NCBI GenBank assembly: GCA_003697085.1
Contig: RFFU01000034.1
Coordinates: 1 to 42,436, forward strand
Length of the DNA: 42,436 nucleotides
From: Candidatus Hydrogenedentota bacterium
GTDB taxonomy: Bacteria > UBA8481 > J006
Direction: 5' to 3'
The notes beneath the pieces are model-generated. The model was given only the letters and a program-made list of their open reading frames with translations, was not told the DNA's origin and ran no database searches. Numbering within the stretch: position 1 is the stretch's first letter; every line of letters begins with the position of its first letter. Below are positions 7,962 to 40,377 of this stretch, piece after piece. Made by a program: the position numbers and the translations under genes.

Positions 7962-9407
7962 TTATTCCTTGACACGATAAGGGTTCGGAAAGAATGAGAG
8001 ATAAACCGCGTCCTCGCGGGACAACAGGATCTTTTCGGGCCCTGCGCGCCGTCCTTGCCCCAAAATTAAAATTCGGTCCGCTTGTCTCAACCCGCAAAAG
8101 ACGATCTCCTTCCCGAAGAGAACCTTTGCGCGATGGGCCAACGACACGCGCCACTCGCGGTTTGCGAAATTGAGACTTCGGTCGGCGGCGAACCCCAGAA
8201 CAAGGTGATAAGAACCGTTTGGAAGCCGCAAAAGCACTTCGTCCGTGAAAACGTCTCCGGAAACAGTGATCGGCAGCCCGCGTTCCAAGCGCGTCTTCAT
8301 CCCCCCGGCAAGGGGATTGAGATACAGCGATTCGACCGGGGGGAGATGCCAGACGGCCGCCCCGCATTCGAAAATGAGCAGGACCACAAGAAACATCGCC
8401 GCCCCCGGACGCGCCGTCAAAAAATTCCCGATTCCGAATCCCGCCAAAAGAAGAAGCGTTCCGACCAGCGGAAGCAAATGCCGCGTCCCCTCGCGAAGAA
8501 ACCCGTGCGCACCGATTGCAACCAGAATTCCGAATCCCAGGTGCAATAGAAGGAGCCTGACGAACGGAGGAAAGGGCCGCTTCAAAGCCCCCAACGCCGT
8601 AATCAAGACCGAAACAGGAATCCCCGCGATCAACCAGAACAAAGCGTAATGCCACTCGGGACGTGGTTTCAACCCGAAATAAAGCACCGGCGGCCGCATC
8701 CGCGATGCTTGACCAAGAATATGATCCGCGAGATCTCCGGGAAAGACCAAAAGCGCCGGGTAGGCGATTATCAGGCCCACGAGGACCGCCAGGAGATAGA
8801 AAAGGGTATTCTTCCCGTCGAGCGGAAGATAACCGCGAAGAAACCGCGCCCAGAAAGGAAGGAGAAGAACCGCGGGCAGGAGGGTGATCTTCGTTCCGAT
8901 TCCGATACCGGCCAAAAGGCCGGTCACGATCCACTGGCGCCGTGCCGTCGCTTCTGCCCCATTTACCAAAACCAGCAGAAGAATGGCGGTCGCCGTCATA
9001 TCCGGACTCACCGTGACGGCCAGGCTCGACAACGGCGGCATTAGAACGAACAAAAACGCCGTCATCCATCCCGCAACCGTGCCTCGAACCATCGCCAGCG
9101 CTTCGCACACACGGCCGATCGCGAAGGCATTCAAAAGAATCGGAACAACGCGTAACCCTTCGAGCATTCCTCCGCTGAGAAACCATCCCAATCCCGCCAT
9201 CAACTTCGCGGGGCTGGCGTGTTCCATACCCGTCCACGCCGCCCGAAAGCCCCCTCTCCCCGCCATCCAGGCCAGAACCGCCTTCGCATTCGCGATTACC
9301 ACGCCCTCTTCGAACGTCAATCCGTAGTACTGCCCCCGCCAAAGAAGCACCGACAGAACGAAAAGTGGAACCAGCCTTACGCTCTTCACTTTTCCAAAAG
9401 GGGTCAT
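7962..9407 (-). CDS. GT-C / PMT-like membrane glycosyltransferase (ArnT-type family)
   Basis: A 481-residue polytopic membrane protein. About ten hydrophobic segments run from residue 10 to 340, with a short acidic first loop (TFEEG near 31-35) in the place where GT39/GT83-type enzymes carry their catalytic aspartate/glutamate. The last ~120 residues are soluble. Such enzymes use polyprenyl-phosphate sugars to glycosylate lipids or proteins on the outer face of the inner membrane. The ATG, and the encoded MTPF, lies inside a copy of the RAYT-associated repeat at 9398-9427; GTG at codon 7 is an alternative start. No good ribosome site is visible. Divergent from a GT4 gene, so an envelope polysaccharide role is likely but unproved. 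Confidence 0.72.
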   Translation of the reverse strand: MTPFGKVKSVRLVPLFVLSVLLWRGQYYGLTFEEGVVIANAKAVLAWMAGRGGFRAAWTGMEHASPAKLMAGLGWFLSGGMLEGLRVVPILLNAFAIGRVCEALAMVRGTVAGWMTAFLFVLMPPLSSLAVTVSPDMTATAILLLVLVNGAEATARRQWIVTGLLAGIGIGTKITLLPAVLLLPFWARFLRGYLPLDGKNTLFYLLAVLVGLIIAYPALLVFPGDLADHILGQASRMRPPVLYFGLKPRPEWHYALFWLIAGIPVSVLITALGALKRPFPPFVRLLLLHLGFGILVAIGAHGFLREGTRHLLPLVGTLLLLAGFGIGNFLTARPGAAMFLVVLLIFECGAAVWHLPPVESLYLNPLAGGMKTRLERGLPITVSGDVFTDEVLLRLPNGSYHLVLGFAADRSLNFANREWRVSLAHRAKVLFGKEIVFCGLRQADRILILGQGRRAGPEKILLSREDAVYLSFFPNPYRVKE

Positions 9408-9427
9408 TCTTACACTTTTTCACTTTC
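9398..9427 (-). repeat. solitary copy of the RAYT-associated 30-bp repeat
   Basis: Read on the minus strand it contains GTGTAAGAATGACCCCTT, matching the terminal repeats of the transposase unit at 22858-23932 with only a few changes. It covers the start codon and first codons of the glycosyltransferase gene ending at 7962. Confidence 0.7.
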
Positions 9428-13359: not shown

Positions 13360-13469
13360 TCTTGACGGGAACCGGCTGAACGCAAGGCACAAGAGCAGGC
13401 GCGCCACGGGCGGGCAGGTACACCCGTCCCTCCATCCATCTCACCCCTCGTATTCGATTTCTTCCTCTT

Positions 13470-13680
13470 CCGTTCTTTCCGTGTATTTCGCGTCTTCCAT
13501 GTTTCCTTCCCTTCCGTGCCATTCCGTGTCTTCCGCGGTTCTTTTCCCTTCCGTCTCCTTCCGCGTGCTCCGTGGTTTTTCCAGCCGCGGCGTAGTCCGT
13601 CCGCTCCTCCTCTACCTCTTTATCCTTCCTTCTTCCCTTTGTCTTTTGCCTTTTTCCTTTTCCTTTTTTCGTGTCTTCCG
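13470..13680. repeat. dispersed low-complexity strip (TCCGTG and CCTTTTTCC words)
   Basis: A run of short words such as TTCCGTG, CTCCGTGG and TTTTGCCTTTTTCC. Matching words occur at 47-161, 16301-16342 and 40265-40335. It forms the spacer downstream of the MauE gene and continues into the last codons of the CobA-HemD gene from 13620, which explains that protein's lysine-rich tail. Confidence 0.55.
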
Positions 13681-16086: not shown

Positions 16087-16375
16087 TGTTCACCGGATTT
16101 CTGCAGGTTCCCGAAAAAAGGGATACACCACAGAGACACAGAGATCACAGAGGATGAAATGAAAAAAGGAAGAGATCCGAAAAAACCTGCGGATTCAACT
16201 CATTCGGGTTTTTCATTTCCTTTTCTCCGGGCGGGGTAAGCGTTTTTTTTAGGTTTTACGCTTTCAGAAAACGGCGTTCGCCGGTCTCTTCTTCCTTTCT
16301 TTCTCCGTGACTTCTCCGTGTCCTCCGTGTTCTCCGTGGTTTCCTCGTATGCGACTTGCAGAAGTCCGGTTGTTC
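16087..16375. mobile_element. MITE-like element with target-site duplication
   Basis: Positions 16092-16108 and 16354-16370 are 17-bp inverted ends differing at two bases (ACCGGATTTCTGCAGGT versus the complement of ACTTGCAGAAGTCCGGT). Both are flanked by TGTTC in direct orientation (16087-16091 and 16371-16375), a likely 5-bp target duplication. Just inside the ends are the CACAGAGA-rich and TCTCCGTG-rich strips, which are also roughly inverted. The element has no transposase gene; a 98-codon open frame inside is not credible. It lies in the btuB upstream region, before the riboswitch. Confidence 0.65.
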
Positions 16376-22140: not shown

Positions 22141-22932
22141 ATGACACAAGCGGCGCTCTGTATTGAAAATGGTTCCGTTTTCCTCGGAAAACGCGAAATT
22201 CTTCATCAGGTATCGCACACCTTTCCGCGCGGAAAGATTACAGGGATCGCCGGGCCTAACGGCGCGGGAAAAACAACACTGCTCAAGGTCCTCGGAGGGC
22301 TTTTGCCGCTGAACGAGGGGAAAGTCACCATCGACGGCGTCGATCTCCAAGCCCTCCCTCGTAGGGAACGCGCGCGCCGTTGCGGTTTCGTCTTCCAACA
22401 GGTCCCGGAAACCTCCGGGTTTACCGTCGAAGAAATTGTGATGATGGGACGGTTCCCTCACATCGATCTCCTCTCCGGACCGAAAACGAAGGACTACGAA
22501 GCCGTCCACAAGGCCATCCGCGCCGCGGGAATCGAAGCCCTGGCTCAAAGAGCATACCGCGATCTCTCCGGCGGCGAACAACAATTGGTTCAGATCGCAC
22601 GCGTCTTTGCGCAGGAAACACCGATCCTTTTGCTCGATGAGCCGGCTGCGAATCTCGACCTTCACCATCAGTACGCTCTCGGGAATCTCCTCCGGCAGAT
22701 CACCAAGAACGACCGAACCGTAATCCTGACATCCCACGATCTTCACCACATCGCCGCCTGGTGCCACGAAATGATTCTTCTCGACTCCGGAAAGATCCTC
22801 GCGGCCGGTCCCTCCTCGGAAATTTTGTCCGATTATGACCTCCTGTCCCGCACCTTTAAGGTGTCATTCTTCCATTTTGACAATTTCAGGAAAGGACCTC
22901 TCGAAGAGCCTCCCTCGCCGCCTCTCCCATAG
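22141..22932 (+). CDS. btuD: cobalamin ABC transporter ATP-binding protein, C-terminus altered by a mobile element
   Basis: A 263-residue ABC ATPase. Walker A is GPNGAGKTT (38-46), the signature is LSGGEQQ (142-148), Walker B is ILLLDEP (162-168), and the switch histidine is in LTSHD (196-200). With BtuC it powers B12 uptake. From Lys240 onward the coding sequence lies in the left terminal repeat and interior of the RAYT unit (from 22858), so the last ~24 residues (VSFFHFDNF then a proline-rich end) are derived from the mobile element. Its stop at 22932 lies inside the transposase gene on the opposite strand, a 47-base tail-to-tail overlap. The catalytic core is intact, so it should still work. 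The start at 22141 is chosen by family alignment. Confidence 0.92.
   Translation: MTQAALCIENGSVFLGKREILHQVSHTFPRGKITGIAGPNGAGKTTLLKVLGGLLPLNEGKVTIDGVDLQALPRRERARRCGFVFQQVPETSGFTVEEIVMMGRFPHIDLLSGPKTKDYEAVHKAIRAAGIEALAQRAYRDLSGGEQQLVQIARVFAQETPILLLDEPAANLDLHHQYALGNLLRQITKNDRTVILTSHDLHHIAAWCHEMILLDSGKILAAGPSSEILSDYDLLSRTFKVSFFHFDNFRKGPLEEPPSPPLP
22858..22887 (-). repeat. left terminal copy of the RAYT-associated repeat
   Basis: On the minus strand it ends in ATGGAAGAATGACACCTT. It encodes BtuD residues 240-249 on the plus strand and covers the transposase stop codon region on the minus strand. It has TGTCA and TGACA words that can pair across 11 bases. Confidence 0.75.
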
Positions 22933-23878
22933 CACGTTTCTTCGGGTTCTTTCGAATCATACTGATGGCCATCGAGATTTTTGAATGTCCTCGACCCGGG
23001 CCCAAACACCTCCTCCGAATTTGCTCCAATGACCAGTGCCCTTCCGTAAAAAGCAAAAACCATACCAAATGAGATACGGCGGTTTCGGTACTCCTCCAGG
23101 CCCTCCCTAAATCGCGACGTTCATCCGCCACCCTTCGACAGATTTTTTCAACTATGTCCGCCGATTCCAACGGAACGGGAGCATCCGTCTTTCTTCGCCG
23201 AAGTGAGGCCTTCACTTCCCGCCGCCTCTCTTGGCGCCGCAGGACATCCTGTCGGAACGCTCGGCTCCCCAAAAACGACCCTCGGTGGTTCTCGCAAAAT
23301 GCCTTCTCGTTTGATTTGACATCGAGACTCTTGAGCCAGGCACGACAGACCGCCAATTCCCGCATCAAATCCGAACGATCAAACGAACGGCCGAATAAAT
23401 AGGGCCACATGCGTTCTCGATCCAAACGGGACCTCCCCTTTGTAAGAAGTTCCCCGACACTGTTCCACTCGTCTGAAAAGATGCTCCGGGCCAGTCCTGC
23501 CCGAACCCGATTCAAAAGAACATAGCCCATAACGGTTTCGAAATAACCGTCCGAATCCACAAGGAGTGTCTTGGTCCTCCCGGCAAAGAGATGGCCCGTA
23601 CGCCCGACGGAACGATTGAGATTCTGAGCGGCCCGCGAAAGAAAGCGCTGAAGAAACCGTGAAATGTTCCCCTCTCGTGTCTCGATCACCGTATGAAAGT
23701 GATTCGGAAGAAGATCATAGGCATAGACCGATATTCGAAACGTCTCCGCCTCCTCGAAAAAGATATCGAGAAACTGCTCATAATCCTTATCTTTTCGAAA
23801 AAAGGGATGACGATCCACAAAACGGTTCAACACGTGGAAAATTGCTCCCGGGAAACAGATTCGAGGACCACGCGCCAT
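22886..23878 (-). CDS. REP-associated tyrosine transposase (Y1/HUH family)
   Basis: A 330-residue RAYT. The HUH histidines are in PNHFHTVIE (H60 and H62), and the catalytic tyrosine is probably Y119 in YVLLNRVRAGL. Start-region residues GPRICFPGAIFHVLNR are typical. RAYTs are domesticated or semi-mobile IS200/IS605-like single-strand transposases associated with REP repeats. The C-terminal ~70 residues (TEGHWSLEQIRRRCLG then GRGHSKISMAISMIRK) resemble the DnaA domain IV helix-turn-helix, which may bind the repeats. ATG 23878 follows GGGAG by nine bases; an earlier GTG lies within the terminal repeat. The gene is intact. It converges on btuD and overlaps it by 47 bases. Confidence 0.88.
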   Translation of the reverse strand: MARGPRICFPGAIFHVLNRFVDRHPFFRKDKDYEQFLDIFFEEAETFRISVYAYDLLPNHFHTVIETREGNISRFLQRFLSRAAQNLNRSVGRTGHLFAGRTKTLLVDSDGYFETVMGYVLLNRVRAGLARSIFSDEWNSVGELLTKGRSRLDRERMWPYLFGRSFDRSDLMRELAVCRAWLKSLDVKSNEKAFCENHRGSFLGSRAFRQDVLRRQERRREVKASLRRRKTDAPVPLESADIVEKICRRVADERRDLGRAWRSTETAVSHLVWFLLFTEGHWSLEQIRRRCLGPGRGHSKISMAISMIRKNPKKRAMGEAAREALREVLS

Positions 23879-23902
23879 AAAAAAATTCTCCCAGACTTCC
23901 GC

Positions 23903-23932
23903 GAAACTGTCAAACTGTAAGAATGACACCTT
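23903..23932 (+). repeat. right terminal copy of the RAYT-associated repeat
   Basis: Contains AAACTGTAAGAATGACACC with TGTCA and TGACA words able to pair. Lies 25 bases upstream of the transposase start and just before the rhomboid promoter. Confidence 0.75.
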
Positions 23933-23937
23933 TTCTC

Positions 23938-27775: not shown

Positions 27776-27805
27776 GAAATTGACAAATTGGAAGAATGAC
27801 ACCTT
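27776..27805 (+). repeat. solitary copy of the RAYT-associated 30-bp repeat
   Basis: Contains AATTGGAAGAATGACACCTT, identical over the last 18 bases to the left terminal repeat of the RAYT unit. It lies two bases beyond the nfuA-like stop codon, between that gene and the permease gene. On the minus strand its TTGTCA could act as a -35 for the permease with a weak TATTGA 18 bases on. Confidence 0.75.
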
Positions 27806-27807
27806 TT

Positions 27808-28341
27808 CTATCCGGGGAGGACGTTGATTTCGCGGCCGAGTTCGTTGCGCAAAAGGTTCTGAATCGCAAAGAGTGTTCCCGAAATCGCACTCGGGCAGGT
27901 TCCGCAGGCGCCTTCGTACCGGATGAAGAGATCTTCTCCTTCGAGGCCGAGCACCTGCAAGCCGCCGCCGTCTCCCGCAAGCGCCGGCCGGACATAGGTA
28001 TCAATCACCGCATTGATCTTGGAAAGCAAATCGCCTGCGTCGCTTCCTTCGTCCTTCGAGACAGCCTCCGGTTCCGCGGCCTCCCGATCCGCGACCAGTT
28101 CCTCCAGCCTTGCCTGCAGCAATCTCCAGTCCGGTTCCGATTCCGTTGTGATCGTTACGAAATTGTCGTTGTAAAAGACGGAGAGAACTCCCGGGACGGT
28201 GAAGAGCCCGGCCGCCAACGGATCCTCTTCTTCGGCCGGCGGCCTGTCGAAGTGACGTGACCCCGCCCCGATAATTCGGCCATCGAGCACAAACTTCACC
28301 GCATTGGGATTCGGTGTTCCCTCGGCATACAAAACCTCCAC
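27808..28341 (-). CDS. nfuA: NfuA/NifU-type iron-sulfur carrier
   Basis: A 177-residue protein with two domains. The N-terminal Nfu_N scaffold domain (AEGTPNPNAVKFVLDGRII at 6-24, GVLSVFYNDNFVTI at 51-64) is joined by an acidic linker to a C-terminal NifU-like domain. That domain has the cluster-binding pair in GACGTCPSAISGTL (C146, C149). It carries and delivers [4Fe-4S] clusters to apo-enzymes, and IlvD next door is an obvious cluster client. GTG at 28341 has GGAGGT seven bases upstream; a longer frame would run into ilvD. It lies 26 bases behind ilvD on the same strand, so co-transcription is likely. Confidence 0.88.
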   Translation of the reverse strand: MEVLYAEGTPNPNAVKFVLDGRIIGAGSRHFDRPPAEEEDPLAAGLFTVPGVLSVFYNDNFVTITTESEPDWRLLQARLEELVADREAAEPEAVSKDEGSDAGDLLSKINAVIDTYVRPALAGDGGGLQVLGLEGEDLFIRYEGACGTCPSAISGTLFAIQNLLRNELGREINVLPG

Positions 28342-28367
28342 GATCTCGACCTCCTTCCCGTATCCGA

Positions 28368-30032
28368 TCAGACCAGAACAGCGCCGCGGCTTCCCGATGT
28401 CACCATCCGCGAATAACGGGCAAGCCAGCCGGTCTTGTACCGCGGCTCCGGCGGCGTCCATTCCTTGCGCCGCCGCTCCAACTCCTCTTCCGAAAGCAGC
28501 ACCTCGAGGCGGCGGTTCGGGATGTCAATCCGAACAACGTCCCCGTTTCGAAGAAGACCGATCGGCCCGCCCGCCGCCGCTTCCGGCGAAACATGCCCGA
28601 TGCAGGCTCCGCGTGTTCCTCCCGAAAAGCGTCCGTCGGTGATCAAGGCACAGCGGGAACCAAGGCCCATTCCCATGATATGCGAGGTCGGAGCCAACAT
28701 CTCCTGCATCCCGGGACCGCCGCGCGGGCCTTCGTATCGAATTACGACAACGTCACCTTCTTTCACTCTCCCTCCAAGAATCCCCTCGCACGCCTCCTCC
28801 TGTGACTCGAAGATCACGGCCGGACCTTCGTGTACCATCATCTCCGGATCGACCCCCCCCGTCTTCACAACCGACCCTTCCGGCGCAAGATTCCCGTATA
28901 GGATCGCCAACCCCCCGTCTTGACTGTACGCGTTTTCCGCGGTGCGGATTACTTCCTTGTCCCGCGATTCCTTTCCGGCGATATTCTCACCGAGAGTCCT
29001 CCCCGTCACCGTCTTTTCCCCGGTATTGAGCCGTCCGGTCGCCGCTGATACCTCGTGAAGAATCGCGCTCACTCCTCCCGCGCGGTCCACGTCCTCCATA
29101 TGCCACTTCGACGCCGGACTGACCTTACAGACCTGGGGAACGATCCCCGCCAACTCATTGAGGCGCGCCAAGGGAAATTCGACCCCCGCTTCGTGAGCGA
29201 GAGCCAAGGTGTGAAGAACCGTGTTCGTCGAACCTCCCATCGCCATATCCAAAATAAACGCATTCTCGATGCTCTTTTCCGTAATGAGGTCACGCGGTTT
29301 GAGATCCTCTTGAACCATCTCGAGAATCCGCTCCGCGGCCCTCCGCAATAACTGATCACGCCGCTCGTCCGTGGCCAGAATCGTTCCGTTTCCCGGAAGG
29401 GCGATGCCCAGCGCTTCGCAGAGACAATTCATCGAGTTTGCGGTGAAGAGCCCCGAGCAGGAGCCGCAAGCGGGACAGCCGTGGTCCTCGAGAACCTTCA
29501 ACTCCTCCTCCGAAATCCGGCCTGATTTGTATTGGCCGACGCCCTCGAAAACCGAGATCAGATCCACGGTTTTTCCATCCGGAGTCCTCCCCGCCGGCAT
29601 CGGCCCGCCCGAAACGAAGATCGTCGGAATGTTGCACCGCACCGCCGCCATCAGCATTCCCGGCACGATCTTGTCGCAGTTCGGAACGCAGATCATTCCG
29701 TCGAAACAATGCGCCCGGACCATACTCTCAACGGAGTCGGCGATGAGTTCGCGGCTCGGCAGCGAAAATTTCATTCCCTCATGCCCCATCGCGATCCCGT
29801 CATCGACTCCGATGGTGTTGAACTCGAACGGAACTCCGCCCGCGGCCCGAACATATTCCTTCAAGCGTCTTCCGTACTCCTGCAGATGAACATGGCCAGG
29901 AATGATCTCGACAAACGAGTTGCAAATGGCGATGAACGGTTTATCAAAATCTTCGTCCCGCACTCCCGTCGCCTTCAAAAGCGAACGGTGCGGCGCCCGC
30001 TCGAACCCTTTCTTGATCGTATCGCTCCGCAT
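28368..30032 (-). CDS. ilvD: dihydroxy-acid dehydratase
   Basis: A 554-residue iron-sulfur dehydratase of branched-chain amino acid and pantothenate synthesis, converting dihydroxy-isovalerate and dihydroxy-methylvalerate to keto acids. Signatures are [20 protein letters not shown] (31-50), [15 protein letters not shown] (113-127) and [20 protein letters not shown], whose cysteines bind the cluster, and the C-terminal [23 protein letters not shown] 30032 matches the family N-terminus ([19 protein letters not shown]) and follows GAGGTGGG; upstream in-frame codons are leader. Divergent from the siroheme reductase. No other ilv gene is in the window. Confidence 0.97.
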
Positions 30033-40070: not shown

Positions 40071-40377
40071 GTAGGGATACCTCTATTGAAAGCGGCGGGC
40101 TGTGCCTCCAGATCTTTCCCATCCTCCCGTATTTCCGGGAGCATTTCGTTTATCGTTTTCCGTTTATCGTCCTTCGTTTTTCGTTTTCCAAGGTTGAACG
40201 GCATGCTTGAACCCGTCAGTGGTAAGGAGCGAACAGTGAACGTTGGCCGATCATTTCTTTTTTGTTCCCTTTTTCCTTTTGCCTTTTTCCTTTTGCCTTT
40301 TGCCTTTTCTTTTGCCTTTCTCTTTCCTTCCGTGGTTCTGTTCGGCCAGCCCCTCTTCGTGTGATCGATACGCGAAT
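40071..40377. repeat. intergenic low-complexity repeat strip
   Basis: About 300 bases between convergent genes. It contains a small hairpin (40124-40141), then CGTTTATCGTT-type words at 40146-40190 and a pyrimidine strip of CCTTTTTCCTTTTGCC words at 40265-40335 that also occur at 13620-13675 and, inverted, near 60-78. No gene is supported. Confidence 0.6.
40124..40141 (+). terminator. possible terminator after the AsmA gene
   Basis: CTCCCG pairs with CGGGAG around a six-base loop, followed by T-rich but interrupted sequence. It lies 54 bases after the stop. Weak by itself. Confidence 0.35.

Follow-up and report, generated by a model that had tools for sequence, protein, structure and literature searches.

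A TIRtron with dispersed terminal repeats built of tandem octamers and a transposase that models with a DnaA domain IV-like tail

In a contig of Candidatus Hydrogenedentota, a single Y1 transposase gene lies between inverted copies of a short repeat. What is this repeat, and how might its enzyme recognize it? The window, by which we mean the whole 42,436-nt stretch analyzed, is contig G000:C64 of a 3.2 Mb draft genome that is 94.6% complete. An original prediction, made from the sequence alone, described the unit as an active or recently active REP/RAYT system, with an intact gene between 30-bp ends differing at three positions. The arms and the open frame were both confirmed (Table 1). The arms at 22858–22887 and 23903–23932 differ at 3 of 30 positions, and these three correspond to free positions of the repeat (5, 13 and 16; see below). 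The ORF is intact, running for 330 aa from an ATG at 23878 to a stop codon at 22886–22888; farther upstream, a GTG in the same frame (23929) falls within the right terminal inverted repeat (TIR). The ORF scores 30.8 bits against PF01797 (cut-off 23), and its HxH and Tyr motifs are intact and invariant in the family comparison. A genome-wide search found one Y1 gene, the window's own. By our estimate, at a density of one repeat per ∼50 kb, the probability that a pair of outward-facing copies lies within ∼30 bp of the gene's two ends is below 1e-5, and hence such an arrangement is not expected by chance. Separately, an ORF for an ABC transporter ATPase (22141–22932) reads through the left TIR, its last ∼25 residues being encoded by the TIR and transposase-side DNA.

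Table 1. Positions of the transposase gene and of the terminal inverted repeats in the window
Feature	Position	Strand	Remarks
Solitary TIR, divergent variant GAAAGTGAAAAAGTGTAAGAATGACCCCTTTT	9396..9427	-	
Left TIR, 32-mer	22856..22887	-	Outer end on the side of 22856; inner end shares bases with the stop codon of the transposase gene
TIRYT gene, 330 aa	22886..23878	-	HUH/Y1 core and DnaA domain IV-like C-terminal tail
Right TIR, 32-mer	23903..23934	+	T run at the outer end (23934); 24 bp upstream of the transposase ATG
Solitary TIR	27776..27807	+	Outer end directly after the TAG stop of the minus-strand gene 27808–28461

The repeat proved to be multicopy and tied to the transposase, as predicted, and the two solitary copies expected near 9398 and 27776 were recovered, on the minus and plus strands, respectively. 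Genome-wide, a 14-mer core with at most one mismatch gave 57 matches versus 1 for the reversed control. An independent, tolerant pattern gave 64 versus 2, with ∼61 clear copies and almost no matches intermediate between perfect and noise. Besides the one transposase unit, there are ∼59 solitary TIRs. In a weight-matrix scan of the retrieved loci, neither decayed copies nor a second inverted end beside solitary copies was found, although the matrix is strict and very decayed ends could escape it. Such a lack of decayed copies would be consistent with the repeat having spread recently or being maintained. Present or recent activity is thus only suggested, and the unit itself is single-copy. As a side observation, the divergent TIR at 9396–9427 supplies an ATG (AAGAATGACC) in frame with ORF 7962–9407, which has a weak PMT_2 match and whose true start is uncertain.

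We then compared 56 copies with one another. The consensus, GAAAnTGw CAAAnTGn AAGAATGA CACCTTTT, consists of three tandem 8-mers followed by an outer CACC with a T run. The outer end reads GGTGTCAT, or GGGGTCAT in a minority of copies, and the flanks lack conservation. Variation is concentrated at positions 5, 8, 13 and 16, which show 99 deviations from the commonest base in 224 (19 combinations among the copies), compared with 4 in 1232 at 22 other positions, where conservation is partly a matter of ascertainment in that positions 17–30 were used to find the copies. At the 11 constrained positions within 1–16, outside the search core, 2 of 616 bases deviate. Because the free positions form two pairs whose members are 8 apart, the contacts made to the first and the second octamer seem to be alike.

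Could the 32-mer instead be a conventional REP, that is, a small single-strand hairpin recognized by the Y1 core, its direct repeats being incidental? The core is TnpA_REP-like, some copies can pair TGTCA with TGACA (–2.5 to –3.0 kcal/mol), and the flanks of some other Y1 genes in our set are foldable. Yet this stem is weak and limited to a minority of copies, an A at position 8 breaking it in 37 of 56. TIR strands fold no better than shuffles, with most copies having no fold, and folding is not a property of the TGACMCC-type TIRs taken as a class (see below). The repeat is non-palindromic, and the GTAG/GTGG tetranucleotide at the hairpin foot is absent from the 56-copy consensus, in keeping with the predicted difference from GTAG-type REPs. 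REPINs (close inverted pairs) are absent from the genome except for the transposase unit. We consider the REP/RAYT reading unlikely. The original assignment holds for the gene, which can rightly be called a RAYT, and fails for the repeat, which is the terminal inverted repeat of a TIRtron and not a REP.

For comparison, we similarly analyzed G001, the sole other genome of the phylum in the data set. The window's 14-mer gave 3 one-mismatch matches in G001 versus 3 for the control, showing no enrichment. G001 has three Y1 homologues, two of which lie between inverted repeats that keep this grammar but differ in their letters. The first of these TIRs, ATAACTAT ATAACTAT AAGACAGG CACC, occurs in 4 exact copies; the second, nAAAAAGT AAAAAAGT TCAAGCCTGACCCC, occurs in 29 copies versus 0 for the control. 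Since the G001 TIRYT has its own TIR and the window repeat is not enriched there, the repeat goes with the enzyme rather than being a conserved motif of the host. The original prediction had singled out a host motif unlinked to RAYT genes as the finding that would undo it; the sister genome offered a different TIRYT with a different TIR, and so no refutation. Several copies of the second G001 TIR (L202–L209) occur as inverted pairs ∼106 bp apart, forming a MITE-like element of ∼130 bp.

These data also bear on whether the repeat is a host regulatory or architectural site, such as a promoter element or a global regulator box, that flanks the transposase by happenstance. Its extreme conservation with fixed free positions does resemble a protein-binding site, and many copies lie 25–170 bp upstream of genes. 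However, the sister genome lacks the repeat and has its own TIRYT's TIR instead, the same end grammar surrounds TIRYTs in many phyla, and copies facing gene ends are nearly as many as those facing gene starts. We regard a host site as quite improbable. Promoter activity as the main function, considered for the TTGACA within many copies, was rejected: position 8 varies, and there is no –10 element at a fixed distance. Least probable of the three is an ordinary insertion sequence whose solitary copies are remnants of deleted elements, which would suit the clean terminal inverted repeats around an intact gene but is at odds with one unit against ∼59 solitary ends, beside which no second inverted end was found in the retrieved loci, with the absence from the genome of a second or partial transposase copy, and with the lack of any visible target duplication.

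If the repeat does not fold, the protein may hold the key to its recognition. Among 45 aligned relatives, all match Y1_Tnp and 24 match Bac_DnaA_C. The tail of the window protein gave no match to Pfam; the family profile matches both TnpA_REP (4er8) and chains of DnaA domain IV, among them 1j1v, a complex with the DnaA box (E 1.3e-9). The predicted structure of the window protein, in which residue 1 is the codon before the ATG, has a mean pLDDT of 87.5. Residues 2–196 of this model superimpose on TnpA_REP 4er8 over 155 residues (Z 17.6, rmsd 2.1), and residues 242–328 on DnaA domain IV of 1j1v over 83 residues (rmsd 3.3), with a middling Z of 7.9. We credit the latter match mainly because the family profile agrees. 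The protein thus models as a TnpA_REP core joined to a DnaA domain IV-like tail.

An alignment query brought up 79 homologous loci from many phyla; a single-sequence contig scan gave none. In 62 of 78 loci, the best flanking inverted repeat exceeded the best of 30 shuffles, and the outer ends at most loci were GGGGTCAGG, GGTGTCAGG or GGTGCC. Internal direct repeats were scored in the 41 TIRs with a clear core. Offsets of 7, 8 and 9 nt were seen in 12, 6 and 5 TIRs, respectively, versus ∼1 expected for each. The direct repeats were individually significant in 39% of the 41 TIRs, with a combined p of 6e-11 that is optimistic, as some loci are related. Folding and direct repeats were distributed differently between the two kinds of end. 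Of TGACMCC-ended TIRs, 1/31 folds and 13/31 have direct repeats, whereas for TIRs with CGTCCC or similar ends the counts are 9/17 and 1/17. This second kind of Y1 flank, with a CGTCCC end and often foldable, occurs with shorter Y1 proteins (L073, L088, L130, L136 and L139). In other genomes, the TIR core occurs singly or as inverted pairs ∼40 bp apart.

The position of the TIRs relative to genes is polar. Judged by a crude codon model of our own, the 500 bp past the outer end are coding for 81% of their length, versus 32% past the inner end (44 copies versus 6), and no ORF end abuts an inner end. Because that model is crude, the placing of stop codons was checked again using plain ORFs. Of 23 ORFs running towards an outer end, 13 have their stop between –7 and +3 of it, and another three end within the repeat. 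Gene 27808–28461, abutted at its stop codon by the solitary plus-strand TIR of the window, encodes a complete Nfu protein, and others, recognized by eye only (e.g. L21-like and RNase Y-like), look full-length. One L006 TIR has its outer end directly after the 3' end of a tRNA-Leu. In TIRtrons of other phyla, an incoming ORF stops within –60 to +120 of 38 of 91 outer ends, versus 17% of control points, and 21 stops fall within –13 to +2, against 1 to 2 expected by our estimate. Gene 3' ends therefore often lie directly against the outer end of a TIR, and in a single orientation, through either target choice or selection.

We favor, as the probable reading, a TIRtron in which one TIRYT gene sits between outward-facing TIRs and ∼59 solitary TIRs have been spread or maintained in trans, with recognition of the boxes by the tail as our proposal. 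This builds on what was observed: the anatomy, the copy number, an enzyme-specific repeat, the domain make-up, the periodicity and the polarity relative to genes. The DnaA-like tail would bind the tandem 8-bp boxes (GAAAnTGw CAAAnTGn AAGAATGA) on double-stranded DNA and so position the HUH core at TGACACC, the outer end that is conserved. There, the catalytic tyrosine would cut and rejoin one strand, the putative cleavage site lying near TGACACC. Reading of the boxes by the tail would replace the hairpin and guide tetranucleotide of REP/RAYT and IS200/IS605 systems. Single TIRs could be mobilized in trans, new TIRs settling so that their outer end adjoins the 3' end of a gene. More tentatively, the same may apply to TGACMCC-type TIRYTs at large, a generalization we consider slightly less likely than not: their ends would be found via tandem duplex boxes of 7–9 bp, which the DnaA domain IV-like tail would read in an iteron-like manner that needs no hairpin. 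The box sequence would then serve as a lineage specificity code, and the outer end would be placed at gene 3' ends.

How does this compare with known systems? The names TIRtron and TIRYT date from 2013 (PMC3733652), and in 2018 the class was tentatively equated with TnpA_Y1 subclass 2.1, which has a DnaA-like C-terminal HTH (PMC6006769). Our unit shares with these a Y1/HUH gene enclosed by long inverted repeats that have no relation to GTAG REPs, and TIRs dispersed in the genome, a dispersed TIR family being a feature of some TIRtrons (PMC3733652). For a DnaA-type C-terminal HTH, the family profile and the predicted fold agree, while the window protein alone has no Pfam match for its tail. It differs from TIRtrons with GGGGWSAS at the TIR outer end, a motif common to some, though not all, TIRs in that study (PMC3733652), in that its outer end is GGTGTCAT; and its dispersed copies are almost all single. 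With REP/RAYT systems (REPtron, REPIN; E. coli TnpA_REP) it has in common a homologous HUH/Y1 core and the layout of the unit, in which a lone transposase gene has inverted copies of a dispersed intergenic repeat on either side. It departs from them in its non-palindromic repeat without GTAG/GTGG tag or REPIN doublets, and in the extra DnaA-like tail. IS200/IS605 elements have the same HUH/Y1 core fold, but here there are no subterminal hairpins at either end, no tnpB was found adjoining the Y1 gene, and the unit is single-copy. DnaA domain IV resembles the C-terminal domain (1j1v) and likewise has boxes of ∼8–9 bp, possibly tandem. Yet in the window protein the DnaA-like domain is fused to an HUH nuclease, and the box sequence is unrelated to the DnaA box TTATNCACA, an unlikeness already remarked on (PMC6006769).

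Subclass 2.1 enzymes occur in ∼15% of strains, with C-terminal HTH types Bac_DnaA_C, HTH_23 or HTH_28, and their DNA recognition was left open there, the TIRs being neither foldable nor similar to DnaA boxes (PMC6006769). Iterated boxes, free positions spaced by 8 and a tail resembling DnaA domain IV would provide a concrete, testable answer. The ∼61 copies are a ready set of substrates in which the seemingly uncontacted positions already vary. We found no description of the tandem 8-mer structure or of the gene-end preference in the main texts of PMC3733652 and PMC6006769, from which the phrase 'direct repeat' is absent. Full-text searches, with subscription papers, figures and supplements outside their reach, turned up no further TIRYT paper.

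Several copies have neighbors or flanks of their own. Two TIRs at L006 (1413–1570) lie on the same strand, 46 bp apart. Five copies on C53 and C124 (L012, L039) have a further ∼40 bp on the inner flank in common (GAAGAATCGTGnAGG...TTGAACAT), and are on the same strand at a spacing of ∼1.3 kb. Such same-strand pairs on C53, C60 and C124 raised the idea of integron cassettes, which was dropped: spacing is irregular, the genes are unrelated, and no attC-like core was seen by eye. At L039 (540–640), an intergenic repeat, GTCATTCCGAGG...GAGGAATCC, adjoins a TIR copy; repeats of its type are widespread in other bacteria. Low-complexity intergenic repeats (TTCCGTGnnTTCCGTGGTT, TTTTGCCTTTTTCC) occur in the window at 13434–13680, 16315–16342 and 40145–40326, and many TIR copies in other parts of the genome have them on their inner side.
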